Below are positions 56,216-64,000 of a stretch of DNA of 64,000 nt, piece by piece. The notes beneath the pieces are model-generated. The model was not told the origin of the DNA, made no database searches, and saw only the letters and a program-made list of their open reading frames with translations. Where the stretch lies: positions 1-64,000 of the forward strand of contig NZ_AJKI01000008.1 of the NCBI RefSeq assembly GCF_000259075.1, given 5' to 3'. Made by a program: the position numbers and the translations under genes. This DNA is from Marinilabilia salmonicolor JCM 21150. GTDB lineage: Bacteria > Bacteroidota > Bacteroidia > Bacteroidales > Marinilabiliaceae. Positions within the stretch are counted from its first letter, which is position 1; each line of letters opens with the position of its first letter.

Positions 56216-57754
56216 ATGGCTAAGAAAAACGGAAACGGCGCAAACGAAACGCTCGAACAAAAATTATGGAGAACCGCAGACAGGCTGCGCAATAATATAG
56301 ATGCTGCTGAATACAAGCATGTGGTGCTTGGTCTTATTTTTCTCAAATACATTTCTGATGCTTTTGATGTGCTTTACGAAAAGCTGAAAGTCGGAGAAGG
56401 GGAGTATGCAGGAGCTGATCCGGAGGATAAGGATGAGTACGGCGCAGAGAATGTCTTTTTTGTTCCTGAAAAAGCGCGCTGGTCATATATTCAGTCACAG
56501 GGAAAAATGCCAAACATCGGCAAACTGATTGATGATGCCATGGATTTAATTGAAGCGGATAATCCCACCCTGAAAGGCATACTTCCAAAAGTTTATGCAC
56601 GTCAGAACTTAGACCCGCAATCGTTGGGTAGTTTGATTGATACTATTGGTACCATTGCGCTTGGTGACGAAAAAGCCAGAAGCCAGGATGTTTTGGGACA
56701 AGTCTATGAATATTTTCTTGGCCAGTTTGCGTTGGCTGAAGGTCAAAAGGGTGGACAGTTCTACACTCCGCAGAGTATTGTGAAATTACTGGTTGAGATG
56801 CTGGAGCCATACTCGGGGAGAGTTTATGACCCCTGTTGCGGAAGTGGTGGAATGTTTGTTCAGAGTGAGAAGTTTATTGAACGTCACCAGGGACGGTTAG
56901 ACGATATTTCGGTATATGGACAGGAGAGTAACCAGACCACTTACCGGTTGTGTAGAATGAACCTCGCCATTCGCGGTATTGATGGTTCAAACATCCGGTG
57001 GAACACAGAAGGTTCTTTTCTCAACAATGCGCACAAGGATTTAAAAGCCGATTATATCATTGCCAATCCACCCTTTAATGTGAGTGACTGGAGCGGCGAT
57101 TTGTTGCGAGACGATCCCCGTTGGCAATTTGGTACACCTCCGGTGGGTAATGCCAACTTTGCCTGGGTTCAGCATTTCCTTTATCATTTGAATCCCAATG
57201 CCGGACAAGCTGGTTTTGTATTGTCCAACGGCTCTTTAAGTTCTAACTCTGGAGGCGAAGGACAAATAAGGCAGAACCTGGTGGAAAATGACCTGGTAGA
57301 GTGTATTGTAATGCTGCCAAAAGCACTGTTTTTTAATACCGGAATTCCGGCTTGCTTATGGTTCCTGCGTCGCGGCAAAAAGAAACGTCACGGAGAGGTG
57401 CTTTTCATTGATGCCTCGGAACTGGGGTATATGATTAACCGCAAAAACCGGGTACTTGCAGATGAGGATGTGATGAAGGTGGCAGACACCTATCATAATT
57501 GGTTGGAGAGTAAAGACAAATACGAAGATGTAAAAGGCTTCTGCAAATCTGCCACGCTTGAAGATATTCAAAAGCACAAGTTTGTATTAACGCCCGGCCG
57601 TTATGTGGGCATTCCCGATGAAGAGGACGATGGCATTCCCTTTCAGGAAAAGGTGGATACACTAACCACTCAACTACGTGAGCAAATGAAGGAAGCCCAA
57701 GAGCTGGATCAGGAAATTAAAACACAATTGGCTAAAATCGGGATTGAGTTATGA
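56216..57754 (+). CDS. hsdM: Type I restriction-modification DNA methyltransferase, M subunit
   Basis: N6-adenine methyltransferase of 512 residues. N-terminal HsdM_N helical region ([30 protein letters not shown], shown in part), then the N6_Mtase domain with AdoMet motif [10 protein letters not shown] (205-214), NPPF (284-287) and [12 protein letters not shown]. The C-terminal coiled coil binds the specificity subunit. It overlaps hsdS by four bases (ATGA). Both enzymatic motifs are intact. Confidence 0.94.
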
Positions 57755-59388
57755 GTATAAATGTAATTTCATTAGCCGATACAACAAGCTTTATCGTAGA
57801 TAACCGAGGAAAAACAGTTCCTACGGCAGATACAGGAATACCTCTAATAAAAACGAACTGTGTCACTAATAACCAATTATTCCCAAGAATAGATGGAGCC
57901 TTCTTTGTCTCGCAAGAAATATTTGATTCTTGGTTTCGTGCTCACCCAATACCTGGAGATTTAATTTTAACCTTAAAAGGGAGTCAGAATGGTGCAGTAT
58001 GTTTAGTCCCAGACCCTGTGGGGTTTGTTATTGCACAGGATATGGTTGCTCTTAGAATTAACAAGGAAGTAATTAATCCATACTACCTATTGGCCTCATT
58101 GCGGACAAGAGAATTACAACATCAAATCAAAACTTTAGATGTTAGTGGAGTTATCCCTCATTTAAAAAAGACAGATTTTGATAAGCTTATTTTACCATAC
58201 CCAAAAAGAGAAATCCAAGACTATATCGGTAATCTCTATTATAACCTAAGTATTAAAATTGACCTCCTTCGCCAGCAAAATCGAACCCTGGAAGAACTGG
58301 CCCAAACCCTTTTCAAGCGTTGGTTTGTAGAGTTTGAGTTTCCCTGCCTTCCTTCGGGCTATCGCCCTCAGGGGCAGGTAAACCTGGAAGAAATTGCTAA
58401 AGTTTGTACTTATAGTCGCGTTGGTGGGGCACCAGCACCTGATGGGCAAAGCTGGTTTGTGTATGTCTTGCTTTGTGAAGATGGCTCTTTTTATAAAGGA
58501 ATGACCAATGACTTGTATCGGAGGTTTTATGAACATTACACAGGTGAAGGGGCTAAACATACCAAAATACATAAACCTGTTAAAATCATTCACTGGGAAC
58601 AATTTAACACACAGGATGAAACCAGGGCAAGAGAGGAGGAGTTAAAGACGGGTTTCGGTCGTACATGGTTGCAACGAGAATATGATAAGCTTCAAAAGTT
58701 TGGTCACACAACAAGCGATGGTTTACCTGCGCACCAAACGAAGTTGGTGCCTGCAGGAAAAATGGTGGAGAGTGAGTTGGGGGAGATTCCGGAGGGGTGG
58801 CACATTAGCCGTTTGCAAGATATAACAGCATTAGTCTCTAGAGGAATATCTCCTAAGTATATGAATGAAGGTGGCATTTGTGTTTTAAATCAAAGGTGCA
58901 TCAGAAATAAGTCAATTGATTTTTCATTAGGTAGAAGACACAACAATGAACTAAAAAATGCAAAATCTAAATTTATTAAACCGTTTGATGTTTTAGTGAA
59001 TTCTACCGGTGTTGGAACTCTTGGAAGAACAGCAGTAGTGAAAAGAATAGAAGAAGAACCAACAACCGTTGACTCCCATGTTTCTATAATTAGAGCCAAT
59101 GAAGAAAGGATTAATAAATTTTTTCTATCATACCTCATAACAGGAAAAGAGCGAGAGATTGAACATATGGCAGAAGGTTCTACAGGACAGACAGAATTAA
59201 GCCGTGCTAAATTAAACGAAATGGAGGTATTAATACCATCAAAATTACTTCAAAATAAGTTTGGTGAGATATCCTTTTTCTCTAGTCAGAAAATAAATTC
59301 AAATGAACAAGAAATCCAAATCCTTACCCAATTGCGCGACACGTTATTGCCGAAGTTGATGAGTGGGGAGGTGAGGGTGAAAGTCTGA
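57751..59388 (+). CDS. hsdS: Type I restriction specificity subunit with GIY-YIG insertion
   Basis: 545 residues, longer than the usual about 400-430. The first TRD covers about 1-165 ([31 protein letters not shown]), then a conserved spacer helix ([27 protein letters not shown], shown in part). The second TRD starts at [14 protein letters not shown] (337). Between them, residues 199-336, a foreign domain carries [33 protein letters not shown] and [16 protein letters not shown]: a GIY-YIG nuclease-like domain with its Tyr, Arg and Glu. The insertion is in frame. It determines DNA specificity; the insertion's effect is unknown. Confidence 0.87.
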
Positions 59389-59400
59389 AATGTGAAAAAT

Positions 59401-59492
59401 GTCTGAACCATGATTTTTAGGATTTTCCTGATTACATGATTTTTTTCTTAAATCAGGGTAATCAAATTAATCCTTTAAATCATGGTTCAGAC
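59401..59492. repeat. Long inverted repeat (ATCATGGTTCAGAC type)
   Basis: GTCTGAACCATGATTT (59401-59416) is perfectly inverted as AAATCATGGTTCAGAC (59477-59492). Inner AGGATT/TGATTA and TAATCA/AATCCT segments extend the hairpin imperfectly. It lies just after hsdS and before the GxxExxY gene, and a related AAATCAGGTAATCATGATAA sequence follows that gene. Confidence 0.75.
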
Positions 59493-59528
59493 AATGATTT
59501 AAAAACCTTAACAAATAATTTTGTAATT

Positions 59529-59924
59529 ATGCAATACAAAGACCTAACCTACAAAATCATTGGTTGCGCAATGGAAGTCCATAAGCACCTTGGAAATGGT
59601 TTTCAAGAAGTGATTTATCAGCGAGCTTTGGCTATTGAAATGGAGTTGCAAGGCATCAATTTTCAGCGCGAATTTGGAATGCCGCTGCATTACAAAGGTC
59701 AGAATATTGGCACCCGTCGCGTTGATTTTTTTGTAGAAGATTGCATTATGGTCGAAATAAAAGCGCTTGTGAATCTTGAAGACGTGCATCTGGCCCAGGC
59801 AATGAATTACGTGGAAGCCTACAATCTGGAAATTGGTTTGCTCATTAACTTTGGAGCCAAAAGCCTTCAGCATAAGCGTGTACACAATAATAAAATCTTA
59901 AAATCAGGTAATCATGATAATTAA
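59529..59924 (+). CDS. GxxExxY protein
   Basis: 131 residues from the ATG at 59529; the longer in-frame extension is encoded by the hairpin repeat and unlikely. The defining motif is GNGFQEVIYQRAL. RVDFFVEDCIMVEIKAL resembles a PD-(D/E)xK nuclease core (D, then E-x-K). Function unknown; it is a common accessory gene often bordered by repeats. It sits between hsdS and DUF3800. Confidence 0.78.
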   Translation: MQYKDLTYKIIGCAMEVHKHLGNGFQEVIYQRALAIEMELQGINFQREFGMPLHYKGQNIGTRRVDFFVEDCIMVEIKALVNLEDVHLAQAMNYVEAYNLEIGLLINFGAKSLQHKRVHNNKILKSGNHDN

Positions 59925-59950: not shown

Positions 59951-60676
59951 ATGACTGAGTACAACATATACTGCGACGAAAGCTGTCATCTGGAATATGA
60001 CCCTCATAAATCAATGGTGTTGGGGGCTGTTTGGTGTGCCAAAGAAGATAAGAAACAGCTATTTGACAGGATAAAGGAGATTAAACAAAAGCATGGTTTA
60101 AAACCTGAATTCGAAATAAAATGGAATAAGGTTTCAAAATCTAAAGCTGACTTTTACAGAGAATTGATTAATTTCTTTTTTGATACTGATAAGCTAAACT
60201 TCAGGGGATTAGTTGTGGCGGATAAAGGAGAGTTGGAGCATGGAAGATATGATCAGACACATGATCAGTTTTATTACAAGATGTATTTTGACATGCTGAA
60301 AATCATCATTTCACCCCATGCATCCTATTATATCTATTTGGACATTAAAGATACCCAGGGCTTTGAAAAGGTTCAAAAACTACATGATGTAATTTGTAAT
60401 AATCATTACGATTTTTCTCAAAGCGTTATTAAGCGAATTCAGGAAGTTCGCTCAGATGAAGTAAGTCTGCTTCAAATAACTGATTTACTAATTGGTGCAT
60501 TGTCCTATTTTTACCGAGGATTGACTGAAAATAAAGCCAAAGTAGAGCTTATTGACCTTATTAAAAGGCGGAGTGGTTACAGCTTGATGAAAAGCACGTT
60601 GCCGTCAGAAAGAAAGTTTAACCTTTTTGTATGGCATTCGGGCTACAGGAGGGGCTGGAATTATGGAGGTTTTTGA
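59951..60676 (+). CDS. DUF3800 family protein
   Basis: 241 residues with the DUF3800 pattern: IYCDESCHLEYD at the start, SYYIYLDIKDTQG in the middle and VSLLQITDLLIGALSYFY near the end. The acidic residues in these three segments resemble an RNase H-fold active site, so a nuclease is possible. It overlaps the next gene by 14 bases, which indicates coupled translation. DUF3800 genes often appear in defence or mobile regions. Confidence 0.8.
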   Translation: MTEYNIYCDESCHLEYDPHKSMVLGAVWCAKEDKKQLFDRIKEIKQKHGLKPEFEIKWNKVSKSKADFYRELINFFFDTDKLNFRGLVVADKGELEHGRYDQTHDQFYYKMYFDMLKIIISPHASYYIYLDIKDTQGFEKVQKLHDVICNNHYDFSQSVIKRIQEVRSDEVSLLQITDLLIGALSYFYRGLTENKAKVELIDLIKRRSGYSLMKSTLPSERKFNLFVWHSGYRRGWNYGGF

Positions 60677-61172
60677 ACTGCCTGAGTTAATTGAATTAAA
60701 TGCATTTGGTGGAAGTTTTGAAAAATATATTGAAGCTGTTTATCAAATTTTTAAAAATGATTTTATTGATACCAAGCCTACTTTTCAAGGTATCAGACTG
60801 GGATTGAAAAAATATCCGCTGGTTGATAATAAGGAATACACATTCTATCATATGACTCATGAAGGAAATATAGAAAGTGAACGAACTCCCGATGTTAGAC
60901 GAATGGAGCGTATTGGATGGCCCAGACCAATGATTGATGACTCTGAACACAGTTATTTGAAAGTTTGGCGAAATACCCGAAGAGGTAAGGGAGGTACAAA
61001 GAGCCGTATTTTGATTTTACATGAAGCCGAACAATATTTAGTCGTGTTGGATGATAGGGGAAATTACATTTTGCCGTGGACTGCTTATCTGATCAGAGGA
61101 AGAAGACAGCTTCAGAAGCATCTCAGGGAATATGAGACTTATAAAAAAGCAGAAGCCGCCAAGCGAACTTAA
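60663..61172 (+). CDS. Uncharacterised protein coupled to DUF3800
   Basis: 169 residues from the ATG at 60663, inside the end of the DUF3800 gene. Not a family I can name. Conserved-looking features are KEYTFYHMTHEGNIESERTP, RRMERIGWPRPMIDD and SRILILHEAEQYLVVLDDRG, with paired His/Arg residues that could suit a RelE/barnase-like nuclease; that is speculative. The C-terminal 25 residues form a charged helix. It probably works with DUF3800. Confidence 0.6.
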   Translation: MEVFELPELIELNAFGGSFEKYIEAVYQIFKNDFIDTKPTFQGIRLGLKKYPLVDNKEYTFYHMTHEGNIESERTPDVRRMERIGWPRPMIDDSEHSYLKVWRNTRRGKGGTKSRILILHEAEQYLVVLDDRGNYILPWTAYLIRGRRQLQKHLREYETYKKAEAAKRT

Positions 61173-61302: not shown

Positions 61303-64000
61303 ATGACCAAACTAACCGAAAACGACATAGAACTATGGGCCATTGAAGAACTGCAAAGCCTGGGGTGGGAATACTTGCACGGCGCAATAATTGCACCGGA
61401 TGGGGATCATCCCGAGCGCAGTAGTTTTGGCGATGTGGTTCTGAGAGGGCGGTTGCAATCAGCCATTGACCGGAACAATCCGGAAATTCCTTTAGAGGCC
61501 AGGCAGGAGGCACTGAAAAACATTGAGCGCATTGCTTTTCCCGATTTAATGGTCAATAATCAGGCGTTTCATGAGATATTGACAGAAGGTTTTCCGGTGA
61601 CGTACCGTAAAGATGGTGTGGAACGTGGCAACAGGGTTCAGTTGGTCAATTTCGAAAATCCGGAACAGAACGATTTTCTGGTGGTGAACCAGTTTACGAT
61701 CATAGAAAACAATACCAATAAACGTCCCGATTTAATTCTTTTTGTCAATGGCTTACCCCTTGTATTATTTGAATTAAAAAATGCCATTGATGAGCATGCA
61801 ACACTGGAATCTGCCTATCATCAAATACAGACCTATAAAGGAGCCATTCCTTCTCTTTTTAGCTACAACGCCTTTTGTATATTGTCTGATGGAGCCGATG
61901 CCAGGGCAGGTTCTTTATCCGCTGGGTTTACGCGTTACATGGCATGGAAAACCAGTGACGGACTTGAGGAAGCATCCACATTGACCAGTCAGTTGGAAGT
62001 ACTGATAAAGGGATTACTCAATCCCGGTACTTTGCTTGATTTTATCAGACATTTTATTGTATTTGAAAAGTCCGGCACACAAGATCCGATAACCAAACAA
62101 CTCGCTTATTCTACACAGAAAAAAATTGCAGCTTATCATCAATATTATGCCGTCAACAAAGCCATTGAATCAGTAAAAGAAGCCTCATCTAACAGCGGAG
62201 ACCGCAAAGGAGGCGTGGTCTGGCATACTCAGGGCAGTGGAAAGTCTCTCTCCATGGTCTTTTTTAGTGGTAAGTTGGTGCTGCAGCTCAACAATCCCAC
62301 CATTGTGGTCATTACCGACCGCAACGATCTGGACGATCAGCTGTTTGATACATTTGCCGCCTCCAAACAATTGCTTCGCCAGGTACCTGTGCAGGCAGAA
62401 AGCCGTGAACACCTCAAAGAACTCCTGAAAGTGGCATCCGGAGGAATAGTTTTCGCGACTATCCAGAAATTTCAACCGGAGGACGGCACCAATGTTTACG
62501 AACAGTTGTCAGATCGTACCAATATAGTGGTAGTCGCCGATGAAGCCCACCGTACACAATACGGTTTTAAGCCCAAAGCGGTGGATGTAAAAGACGATGG
62601 TGGCAATGTGGTTGGTCAGCGCCTGGTGTATGGTTTTGCCAAATATATGCGTGATGCGCTGCCCAATGCAACCTACCTGGGTTTTACCGGCACCCCGATA
62701 GAATCTACTGATGTGAACACCCCGGCCGTTTTTGGTCATTATGTGGACATCTATGACATTGCCCGTGCGGTGGACGATGGGGCTACGGTACCCATCTATT
62801 ATGAAAGCCGTCTGGTGAAAATCAACCTGTCAGAAGAGGGCCAGCAATTAATAGAAGAATTAGACGCGGAATTAGGCGACGGAGAGACAATTCAGGAATC
62901 GTCTAAAATGAAATGGACAAAAGTCGAAGCCATTATCGGCAGTCAGGCACGACTGCAAAAAGTGGCAGAGGACATCGTATTCCATTATGAAGAGCGCACC
63001 AATAGCGGTATTGAAGGTAAAGCCATGGTTGTGGCAATGAGTCGCCGCATTGCAGTGGATTTGTACAACGAAATCATTAAAATACGACCACACTGGCACA
63101 GTGACAAACTGGACAAAGGAGCCATCAAAGTGGTTATGACTGCTGCTTCATCCGACGGGCCGGAGCTGATGAAACACCATACCACCAAAGAGCAGCGACG
63201 GTCACTGGCCGACCGGATGAAAGACACTGCAGATCCTTTGCGGATGGTTATTGTCCGGGATATGTGGCTGACCGGCTTTGATGCACCCAGTTTGCATACA
63301 TTGTACATCGACAAACCCATGAAAGGACACAATCTGATGCAGGCCATTGCCCGCGTCAACCGTGTTTACAAGGACAAACCGGGTGGCTTGGTGGTCGATT
63401 ACTTTGGCATTGCTTCGGATCTCAAAAAAGCATTGTCATTTTATTCAGAAAGTGGGGGTAAAGGTGATCCGGCGGAGGCACAGGAGAAAGCTGTTGGTCT
63501 GATGTTGGAAAAACTGGAAGTCGTCTCACAGATGTTTTCAGAGAAACCGGCAGAGAACACGCAATATGCTATGGCAGCCGATGATCGGGAGTTATACGGC
63601 AAATCCTTTGCCTATGAGAATTATTTTGATGCGTCAGTCAGGCAAAAACTGGAAATTATCCTGGCAGCTGTTGAGCATATTCTTAGTCTGGAAGACGGCA
63701 AAGACCGTTTTGTGCGTGAAGTAACCGCTCTCTCCAAAGCCTTTGCCATTGCACTTCCTCATGAAGAAGCCATGGATGCTAAAGATGAAATCGCTTTCTT
63801 TCAGGCCGTCAAAGCCCGTTTGATGAAGTTTGAGCCAACAACCGGTGGCAAATCAAACTATGAAATAGAAACGGCTATCAAGCAGGTCATCGACCAGGCC
63901 ATTGTCTCCGAGCAGGTGGTGGACATCTTCGATGCTGCCGGCATCAAAAAACCAGAACTTTCAGTTCTGGATGATGAGTTTCTGGAAGAGATGCGCGACA
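61303..64000 (+). CDS. hsdR: Type I restriction endonuclease R subunit, partial
   Basis: Runs off the window; 899 codons are visible without a stop. The N-terminal nuclease has RPDLILFVNGLPLVLFELKN (D143, E157, K159; PD-(D/E)xK). The SF2 motor has the Walker A TQGSGKS (309-315), VVADEAHRTQ (DEAH at 413-416), FTGTPIE and ARVNRVYKDKPGG. The start is the ATG at 61303. It belongs with hsdM-hsdS, from which three small genes separate it. The C-terminal helical domain is beyond the end. Confidence 0.92.
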   Translation, partial: MTKLTENDIELWAIEELQSLGWEYLHGAIIAPDGDHPERSSFGDVVLRGRLQSAIDRNNPEIPLEARQEALKNIERIAFPDLMVNNQAFHEILTEGFPVTYRKDGVERGNRVQLVNFENPEQNDFLVVNQFTIIENNTNKRPDLILFVNGLPLVLFELKNAIDEHATLESAYHQIQTYKGAIPSLFSYNAFCILSDGADARAGSLSAGFTRYMAWKTSDGLEEASTLTSQLEVLIKGLLNPGTLLDFIRHFIVFEKSGTQDPITKQLAYSTQKKIAAYHQYYAVNKAIESVKEASSNSGDRKGGVVWHTQGSGKSLSMVFFSGKLVLQLNNPTIVVITDRNDLDDQLFDTFAASKQLLRQVPVQAESREHLKELLKVASGGIVFATIQKFQPEDGTNVYEQLSDRTNIVVVADEAHRTQYGFKPKAVDVKDDGGNVVGQRLVYGFAKYMRDALPNATYLGFTGTPIESTDVNTPAVFGHYVDIYDIARAVDDGATVPIYYESRLVKINLSEEGQQLIEELDAELGDGETIQESSKMKWTKVEAIIGSQARLQKVAEDIVFHYEERTNSGIEGKAMVVAMSRRIAVDLYNEIIKIRPHWHSDKLDKGAIKVVMTAASSDGPELMKHHTTKEQRRSLADRMKDTADPLRMVIVRDMWLTGFDAPSLHTLYIDKPMKGHNLMQAIARVNRVYKDKPGGLVVDYFGIASDLKKALSFYSESGGKGDPAEAQEKAVGLMLEKLEVVSQMFSEKPAENTQYAMAADDRELYGKSFAYENYFDASVRQKLEIILAAVEHILSLEDGKDRFVREVTALSKAFAIALPHEEAMDAKDEIAFFQAVKARLMKFEPTTGGKSNYEIETAIKQVIDQAIVSEQVVDIFDAAGIKKPELSVLDDEFLEEMRD

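Follow-up and report, generated by a model that had tools for sequence, protein, structure and literature searches.

The window (the whole stretch of 64,000 nucleotides that was analyzed) contains a type I restriction-modification (R-M) locus whose hsdS gene carries an in-frame insert encoding a GIY-YIG domain. The features of this locus are as follows:

56216..57754, + strand: hsdM, 512 aa, the upstream partner of hsdS (TIGR00497 match with E 6.1e-61, under the model's curated cut-off)
57751..59388, + strand: hsdS with the in-frame GIY-YIG insert, 545 aa (ORF list, Pfam)
58207..58329, + strand: first spacer (CR1) helix, aa 153-193 (AlphaFold2 model)
58338..58383, + strand: left-end hairpin, GTTT C CCTGCC ... 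GGCAGG T AAAC, translated (fold, covariation, synonymous constraint)
58345..58755, + strand: insert, 137 codons, between FEFP and GKM (comparison of inserted and uninserted homologues)
58453..58656, + strand: GIY-YIG (UPF0213-type) domain, aa 235-302 (Pfam PF01541)
58726..58757, + strand: right-end hairpin, CCTGC ... GCAGG, translated (fold, covariation)
58801..59388, + strand: second target-recognition domain and second spacer helix of HsdS (Pfam, AlphaFold2 model)
61303..64000, + strand: hsdR, continuing beyond the window; its frame is open for 1068 aa in the genome, full length in locus L091 (TIGR00348 match)

The hsdS reading frame is uninterrupted from 57751 to 59388, and the 3′ end of hsdM overlaps its start. 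Pfam analysis of the product revealed two Methylase_S stretches (E 2.1e-14); with these two halves and their spacer helices, and with hsdM and hsdR nearby, it was classified as HsdS. The best fold matches of its predicted structure are HsdS proteins, with 1yf2 ranking first. Directly after hsdS lies a long imperfect palindrome (approximately 59405-59500, recognized by eye), which overlaps the start of a PDDEXK_3 gene (59436-59924, E 2.7e-39) that we take to be GxxExxY-like. Repeat peptides of the NHKN type, resembling those at 59405-59924, were also observed inside the EcoR124-type HsdR of locus L089. Two further ORFs (241 and 181 aa; 59951-61172) are located between hsdS and hsdR.

The preliminary description of this DNA placed an insertion of about 138 residues at 58345-58758, between the first spacer helix and the second half of HsdS. 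Alignment with homologues confirmed an in-frame insert at this site, between the first spacer helix and the second target-recognition domain (HsdS residues 199-335), and the borders obtained (58345-58755, 137 residues) agree with the earlier ones to one codon. The in-frame insertion is real, but the linker of the host protein was replaced, not merely added to: in the window HsdS the 11-residue linker (NENGEPYKSSG type) is gone and 137 aa stand in its place between FEFP and GKM. The old linker is absent from all seven readable inserted HsdS proteins.

A pattern scan of all loci collected identified 30 distinct HsdS linkers, 17 of which have 11 residues and are NENGEPYKSSG-like, while six have 16-33 residues and keep YKSSG or a near form on the right. 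The remaining seven have 130-153 residues with GIY-YIG, a share that is no frequency, since the insert served as the search query and the set is enriched for insert-bearers; even in this enriched set the inserted state, earlier called unusual for the family, is the minority state. The empty site is conserved, as NENGEPYKSSG-like linkers occur in loci from several phyla. Two operons encode HsdM proteins 87-88% identical to that of the window; one (L117) has a plain linker and no insert, and the other (L120) a 33-residue linker without GIY-YIG. Short repeat-like peptide inserts, with YKSSGGKM intact on the right, were observed in the HsdS hinge linkers of L113 (1181-2578), L114 (8258-9697) and L121 (5398-6831). 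The preliminary description had proposed a search for copies of the inserted DNA in other genes of the genome; a search there with the insert and its short flanks found no further copy (best other match E 0.3).

The GIY-YIG domain was recognized by Pfam with E 3.5e-13 and 50.1 bits (cut-off 22.6). Among solved structures, the domain is closest in sequence to the UPF0213 proteins 1ywl and 1zg2, and on account of these matches the family name UPF0213 is correct, as is the GIY-YIG (UPF0213-like) naming given before. Residues Y5, Y15, G17, R25, H29 and E62 are invariant in all 11 related inserts, and catalytic roles are presumed for some of them. In all 21 pairwise comparisons of seven cores, dS was at least 1.0 or saturated and dN was 0.12-0.36, with omega not exceeding 0.22 wherever it was computable; the frame is open in all seven gap-free inserted copies. 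Judging from these sequence comparisons, the GIY-YIG core is old and under purifying selection as a protein domain. The structure prediction suggested earlier modelled the core as a confident domain between low-confidence tethers: the core block has pLDDT 82-89 and the tethers (188-196 and most of 318-346) less than 50, in an AlphaFold2 HsdS model of modest overall quality (pLDDT 67.5, pTM 0.47, nine sequences) in which the second recognition domain is poorly modelled. Structure 1zg2 is also among the fold matches of this model (rank 15). The insert starts with an invariant Cys.

Analysis of the insert ends revealed a hairpin on each side. The GGGCTATCGCCC hairpin noted earlier at the left edge is present (58356-58367) and forms the inner part of the larger hairpin 58338-58383; the preliminary description did not list the second one, at the right end. 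The left hairpin has a DNA folding energy of -12.6 kcal/mol (z -4.0) and the right one a z of -3.2, with none of 200 shuffles as stable in either case. The equivalents in L088 are moderate on the left (z -2.6) and weak on the right (z -0.9). In the seven loci compared, 89% of cells in the left stem are paired and six of the 17 pairs have changed on both sides (shuffle mean 1.3; 0/500 shuffles as high; best slid control 3). In the right stem 92% of cells are paired and three of the 12 pairs show double changes (22/500 shuffles as high); its covariation score was reached by none of 500 shuffles, and its pair types showed no excess over shuffles (338/500 as high). Third-base identity at four-fold sites of codons for the same amino acid is 0.67 in the left and 0.57 in the right hairpin (L109 omitted from both counts because of its long loop), compared to 0.25 in the core and 0.44 and 0.41 in the flanks. 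From covariation and third-base constraint, the insert end sequences appear to be conserved for their DNA or RNA structure in addition to the peptide that they encode, most clearly on the left. Palindromic ends and in-frame insertion are features that the insert shares with palindromic elements.

Of 13 inserts (seven in HsdS, four in HsdR, and one each in HsdM and at a junction), 10 have the hexamer CCTGCC or its complement GGCAGG in the left end and 8 in the right end; in L189 and L232 neither end contains it. The totals (32 occurrences within 3238 nt of end sequence, compared to 12 within the remaining 22633 nt) are descriptive only, because the hexamer was picked after viewing the ends. An exact 9-nt left/right inverted repeat is present in one of five EcoEI-type HsdR inserts (L105) and in none of the other four; the other two inserts examined contain one 9-nt pair (L095) or none (L089). 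Longer imperfect end repeats were recognized by eye in L095, L089 and L190.

The same-site insert was identified in at least eight loci: the window, L088 (genome G046) and six further carriers, which are a lower bound among the matches listed: L107 (Saprospirales), L108 (Bacteroidales; matches G332), L109 (Crocinitomicaceae), L110 (Flavobacteriaceae F08102), L111 (Bacteroidetes CG18) and L112 (Lentisphaerae). L111 has an assembly gap with Ns in the gene, and was excluded from alignments and rate counts and included in the core trees. The family search (71 genomes) detected the full HsdS insert only in the window's genome and G046, and the order sample (393 genomes) one further carrier, G332. 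No additional HsdS carrier was found among the best eight candidates scored per genome in the phylum sample (395 genomes), weaker matches possibly being missed. In the plasmid and phage collections, 27 and 22 records match, none covering 80% of the query; these matches are restricted to the GIY-YIG part or the spacer part alone. HsdS with the insert was not found among 13 and 2 loci on viral contigs. The 71 family genomes contain no uninserted HsdS with the window's first recognition domain (one other match, 30% identity), which is why no recent empty/filled pair was found. As with homing elements, related genes either have the insert or lack it at one conserved site.

The HsdM proteins of seven of these loci form three groups (the window with G046; L110 alone; L107, L108, L109 and L112), with 69-87% identity within and 25-48% between groups. 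The 30 residues left of the insert are 89% identical within groups and 52% between them, and the identity of this left linker is correlated with that of HsdM (rho 0.89, exact permutation 0.0012, seven loci). The insert core, in contrast, has a mean identity of 70% across groups (14 pairs) and 72% within (7 pairs), and does not follow HsdM (rho 0.06, permutation 0.37, seven loci). For example, the window and L107 share 30% identity in HsdM and 82% in the core, whereas L107 and L108, with identical linkers and 83% identity in HsdM, share 67% in the core. The insert tree, too short to resolve, places L107, L108, L109 and L112 together (support 53/82); it appears compatible with the HsdM group, and the apparent independence of the core rests on distances in seven loci. 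In our reading of these sequence data, the insert entered R-M families at this one site on at least two separate occasions, and movement of a cassette between type I families appears well supported. Recognition domain 1 itself crosses families (47% identity between the window and L108, at 30% in HsdM); therefore, HsdS shuffling remains a rival route for the insert.

Related domains were found in other R-M genes. In the window's phylum, all 14 GIY-YIG domains flanked on both sides by host sequence lie in type I subunits (HsdS, HsdR, HsdM); these were obtained from open frames of at least 240 aa in the family, order and phylum searches, plain hsdS spacer matches being left out. Their hosts are:

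HsdS: window, G046, G332
HindI-type HsdR: G138, G718
EcoR124-type HsdR: G023
HsdM: G588
EcoEI-type HsdR, at one common site: G051, G238, G266, G351, G387, G260, G566

Besides the window, the hosts of G718, G588, G138, G023, G238 and G566 were verified by Pfam; the other seven were assigned by eye, and three of them also match EcoEI-type HsdR by BLAST (L037, L071, L073). In a further draw from the same phylum the best match was the HsdM of G588. The EcoEI-type inserts, located at one site in seven genomes (L096, L097, L098, L104, L105, L090, L191), are mostly bordered by STSSPT-like and VGELxEP-like repeat peptides. The HsdR of G718 (L189:3875-7891) contains, besides GIY-YIG, another in-frame insert, a nuclease-like DUF559 domain (E 5.3e-34, aa 441-545). 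GIY-YIG domains are also joined to the HsdS N-terminus via a repeat-like low-complexity peptide in G046 (L092:4356-5408) and G158 (L101:2368-4125), and N-terminal joins to other or doubtful frames were detected in G402, G116, G433, G366, G486, G604, G799 and G656.

Three phylum samples were searched with profile A7: 288 genomes for the phylum of L112, 398 for that of L138 and 189 for that of L132. Three matches scored better than 1e-28, and each lies in a type I R-M locus: an HsdS that was already a profile member (G847), a HindI-type HsdR with the insert at the loop common to G718 and G138 (G1130), and a 131-aa ORF located between hsdM and hsdS, where two CCTGCCTGCCGGCAGGCAGG palindromes precede the domain (G1168). 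The weaker matches listed are open frames of 83-166 aa. A free GIY-YIG ORF was likewise observed between hsdM and hsdS in L233 (4638-5030). Its start resembles the HsdS N-terminus (MSRIDDLIAELCP vs MSGIDQLLRQLCP), which suggests an insertion at the hsdS start with duplication. In a raw count, 12 of 99 free-standing GIY-YIG loci have a type I R-M homologue, in some cases a weak one, in another frame within approximately 1.5 kb.

A quick tree of 108 cores placed the eight HsdS inserts in a single clade (SH-aLRT 96), which together with the inserts of two HindI-type and one EcoR124-type HsdR makes up a clade of 11 (94). No free-standing gene falls inside the latter, and the HsdM insert branches adjacent to it. 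The EcoEI-type HsdR inserts are placed elsewhere, among free-standing genes, and this separation from the HsdS clade suggests that GIY-YIG domains of probably two or more lineages have entered type I R-M genes. In a larger tree the corresponding clade (support 84/92) includes one solo gene on a long branch (L223), near which there is no R-M homologue, and the HsdM and junction members lie outside; a single clade for all 14 was not rejected (AU p 0.23).

The explanation toward which we lean, with modest conviction, is that the insert is an unspliced, in-frame, site-specific mobile cassette that enters the hsdS linker by homing-like copying and is tolerated as a tethered domain. A hairpin-ended cassette encoding a predicted nuclease of the UPF0213 lineage would replace the linker between spacer helix 1 and recognition domain 2, stay unspliced and form an additional translated domain, flexibly tethered at the hinge, an arrangement that would let recognition and methylation continue. 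Such a cassette would pass horizontally from the hsdS of one type I family to that of an unrelated one, landing at one site. By the most likely, homing-like route, the nuclease would cut an hsdS without insert within the conserved sequence that encodes the linker, and repair would then copy the cassette into the cut gene, deleting the old linker. Cutting and repair copying with linker removal would explain why the old linker is missing alongside family-specific flanks; short flanking homology between families makes repair-based copying harder. We infer homing as the route of spread, and likewise that the domain cuts DNA, that it targets the empty linker site and that the host enzyme still works. 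According to the accessible text of PMC3874165, an EcoAI S subunit permuted in its central region kept specificity and methylation and lost restriction; by analogy, the HsdS insert might cost restriction. The preliminary description had offered a mobile coding insertion or a nuclease added to HsdS. Both readings gained support, the second as a predicted nuclease, and they are not mutually exclusive.

We judge it rather unlikely that the insert is instead a domesticated accessory nuclease, recruited for extra cutting or nicking and spread by ordinary HsdS domain shuffling. Purifying selection and invariant active-site residues fit such recruitment, as do the GIY-YIG fusions to the HsdS N-terminus (L092, L101), the 12 of 99 free-standing loci near a type I R-M homologue (some weak) and the crossing of HsdS parts between families (47% in recognition domain 1 of the window and L108, 30% in HsdM). 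However, the linker beside the insert follows HsdM and the insert core does not, domain fusion needs no hairpin ends under nucleotide-level constraint, sister operons lack the insert, and the inserts of HsdS, HsdR and HsdM stand at unrelated places. It is improbable that a tolerant loop passively gathers translated palindromic elements, with the GIY-YIG gene an occasional neutral passenger: dS of at least 1.0 or saturated with dN of 0.12-0.36, open frames in all seven gap-free copies, and exact boundaries common across families speak against it, although six of the 30 distinct linkers have 16-33 residues, some of repeat-like peptides (L113, L114, L121), and the accessible part of PMC10969869 describes Rickettsia palindromic elements as in-frame repeats. 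Selection on the core already weakens this passive reading, and a recent decaying repeat was rejected on the same ground.

A self-removing intein or intron, which the invariant Cys at the insert start and the GIY-YIG domain (as in some introns) might bring to mind, is very improbable. No Pfam intein-domain match and no Rfam match over the insert were obtained at E up to 1 (the one sub-threshold Rfam match lies on the other strand, downstream of hsdS), only about 65 residues are present besides the nuclease domain, and the frame is open throughout. As a rule, inteins end in His-Asn, and the insert is without that ending. With neither a splicing domain in Pfam nor a catalytic RNA in Rfam, an intein and a group I or II intron were rejected. 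The preliminary description had also reckoned with two genes fused by an assembly error and with a domain that is a normal part of close homologues, and the probability of either is negligible. The architecture recurs in independent assemblies, in at least seven other genomes, and is therefore no assembly fusion; most homologues found have a plain linker, with 11 residues in 17 of the 30 distinct linkers, and sister operons are uninserted.

The reading as a mobile cassette can be extended, tentatively and with less assurance, to a GIY-YIG lineage living unspliced inside type I S, R and M genes and at the hsdM/hsdS junction. This lineage would home into conserved coding motifs as a selfish element with a niche in an immune system, frequently with CCTGCC/GGCAGG hairpins or inverted repeats at its ends, and would become a permanent host domain. 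Should this hold, a nuclease kept in the protein would repeatedly land in type I restriction genes, homing would occur without an intron or intein, and hsdS, the gene setting restriction specificity, would have a new recombination route. In addition, the single odd HsdR of 2006 (see below) would become a testable pattern across all three subunits.

No report of a GIY-YIG insert in HsdS was recognized among the matches listed in the open-licence literature. In the accessible text of Dunin-Horkawicz et al. 2006 (PMC1564403), one HsdR insert is described, in MCA0838 of Methylococcus capsulatus, which is absent from an 80% identical homologue, is termed unique and perhaps functionally irrelevant, and is treated together with the Slx1 cluster; the main text uses neither HsdS nor specificity subunit as a term. 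Against this published description, both cases are in-frame GIY-YIG inserts in a type I R-M subunit, but MCA0838 is a single HsdR case, whereas the window type lies in HsdS and recurs at one site across families and phyla. Hairpin ends and selection are features of the HsdS insert analyzed here. A free GIY-YIG gene adjoining a plasmid hsdS is reported in the accessible part of PMC4420470, where a homing-like remnant is suggested.

The UPF0213 proteins 1ywl and 1zg2 contain the same domain by sequence, as chains of 96 and 107 residues, whereas here the domain is embedded in HsdS. The palindromic elements of Rickettsia are similarly palindromic sequences in frame in protein genes and translated; as described in the accessible part of PMC10969869, they are approximately 150 bp long, encode a short peptide and occur in many copies in unrelated genes. 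The HsdS insert, in contrast, has a nuclease domain between its hairpins and lies in R-M genes as a single copy, with no second copy of the insert in its own genome. With GIY-YIG homing endonucleases of the I-TevI type it shares the nuclease fold, a conserved site in a coding gene and, judging from core distances, an apparent spread apart from the host gene; it differs from them in having neither intron nor intein, in that the domain remains in the protein, and in that target and cutting are here putative.
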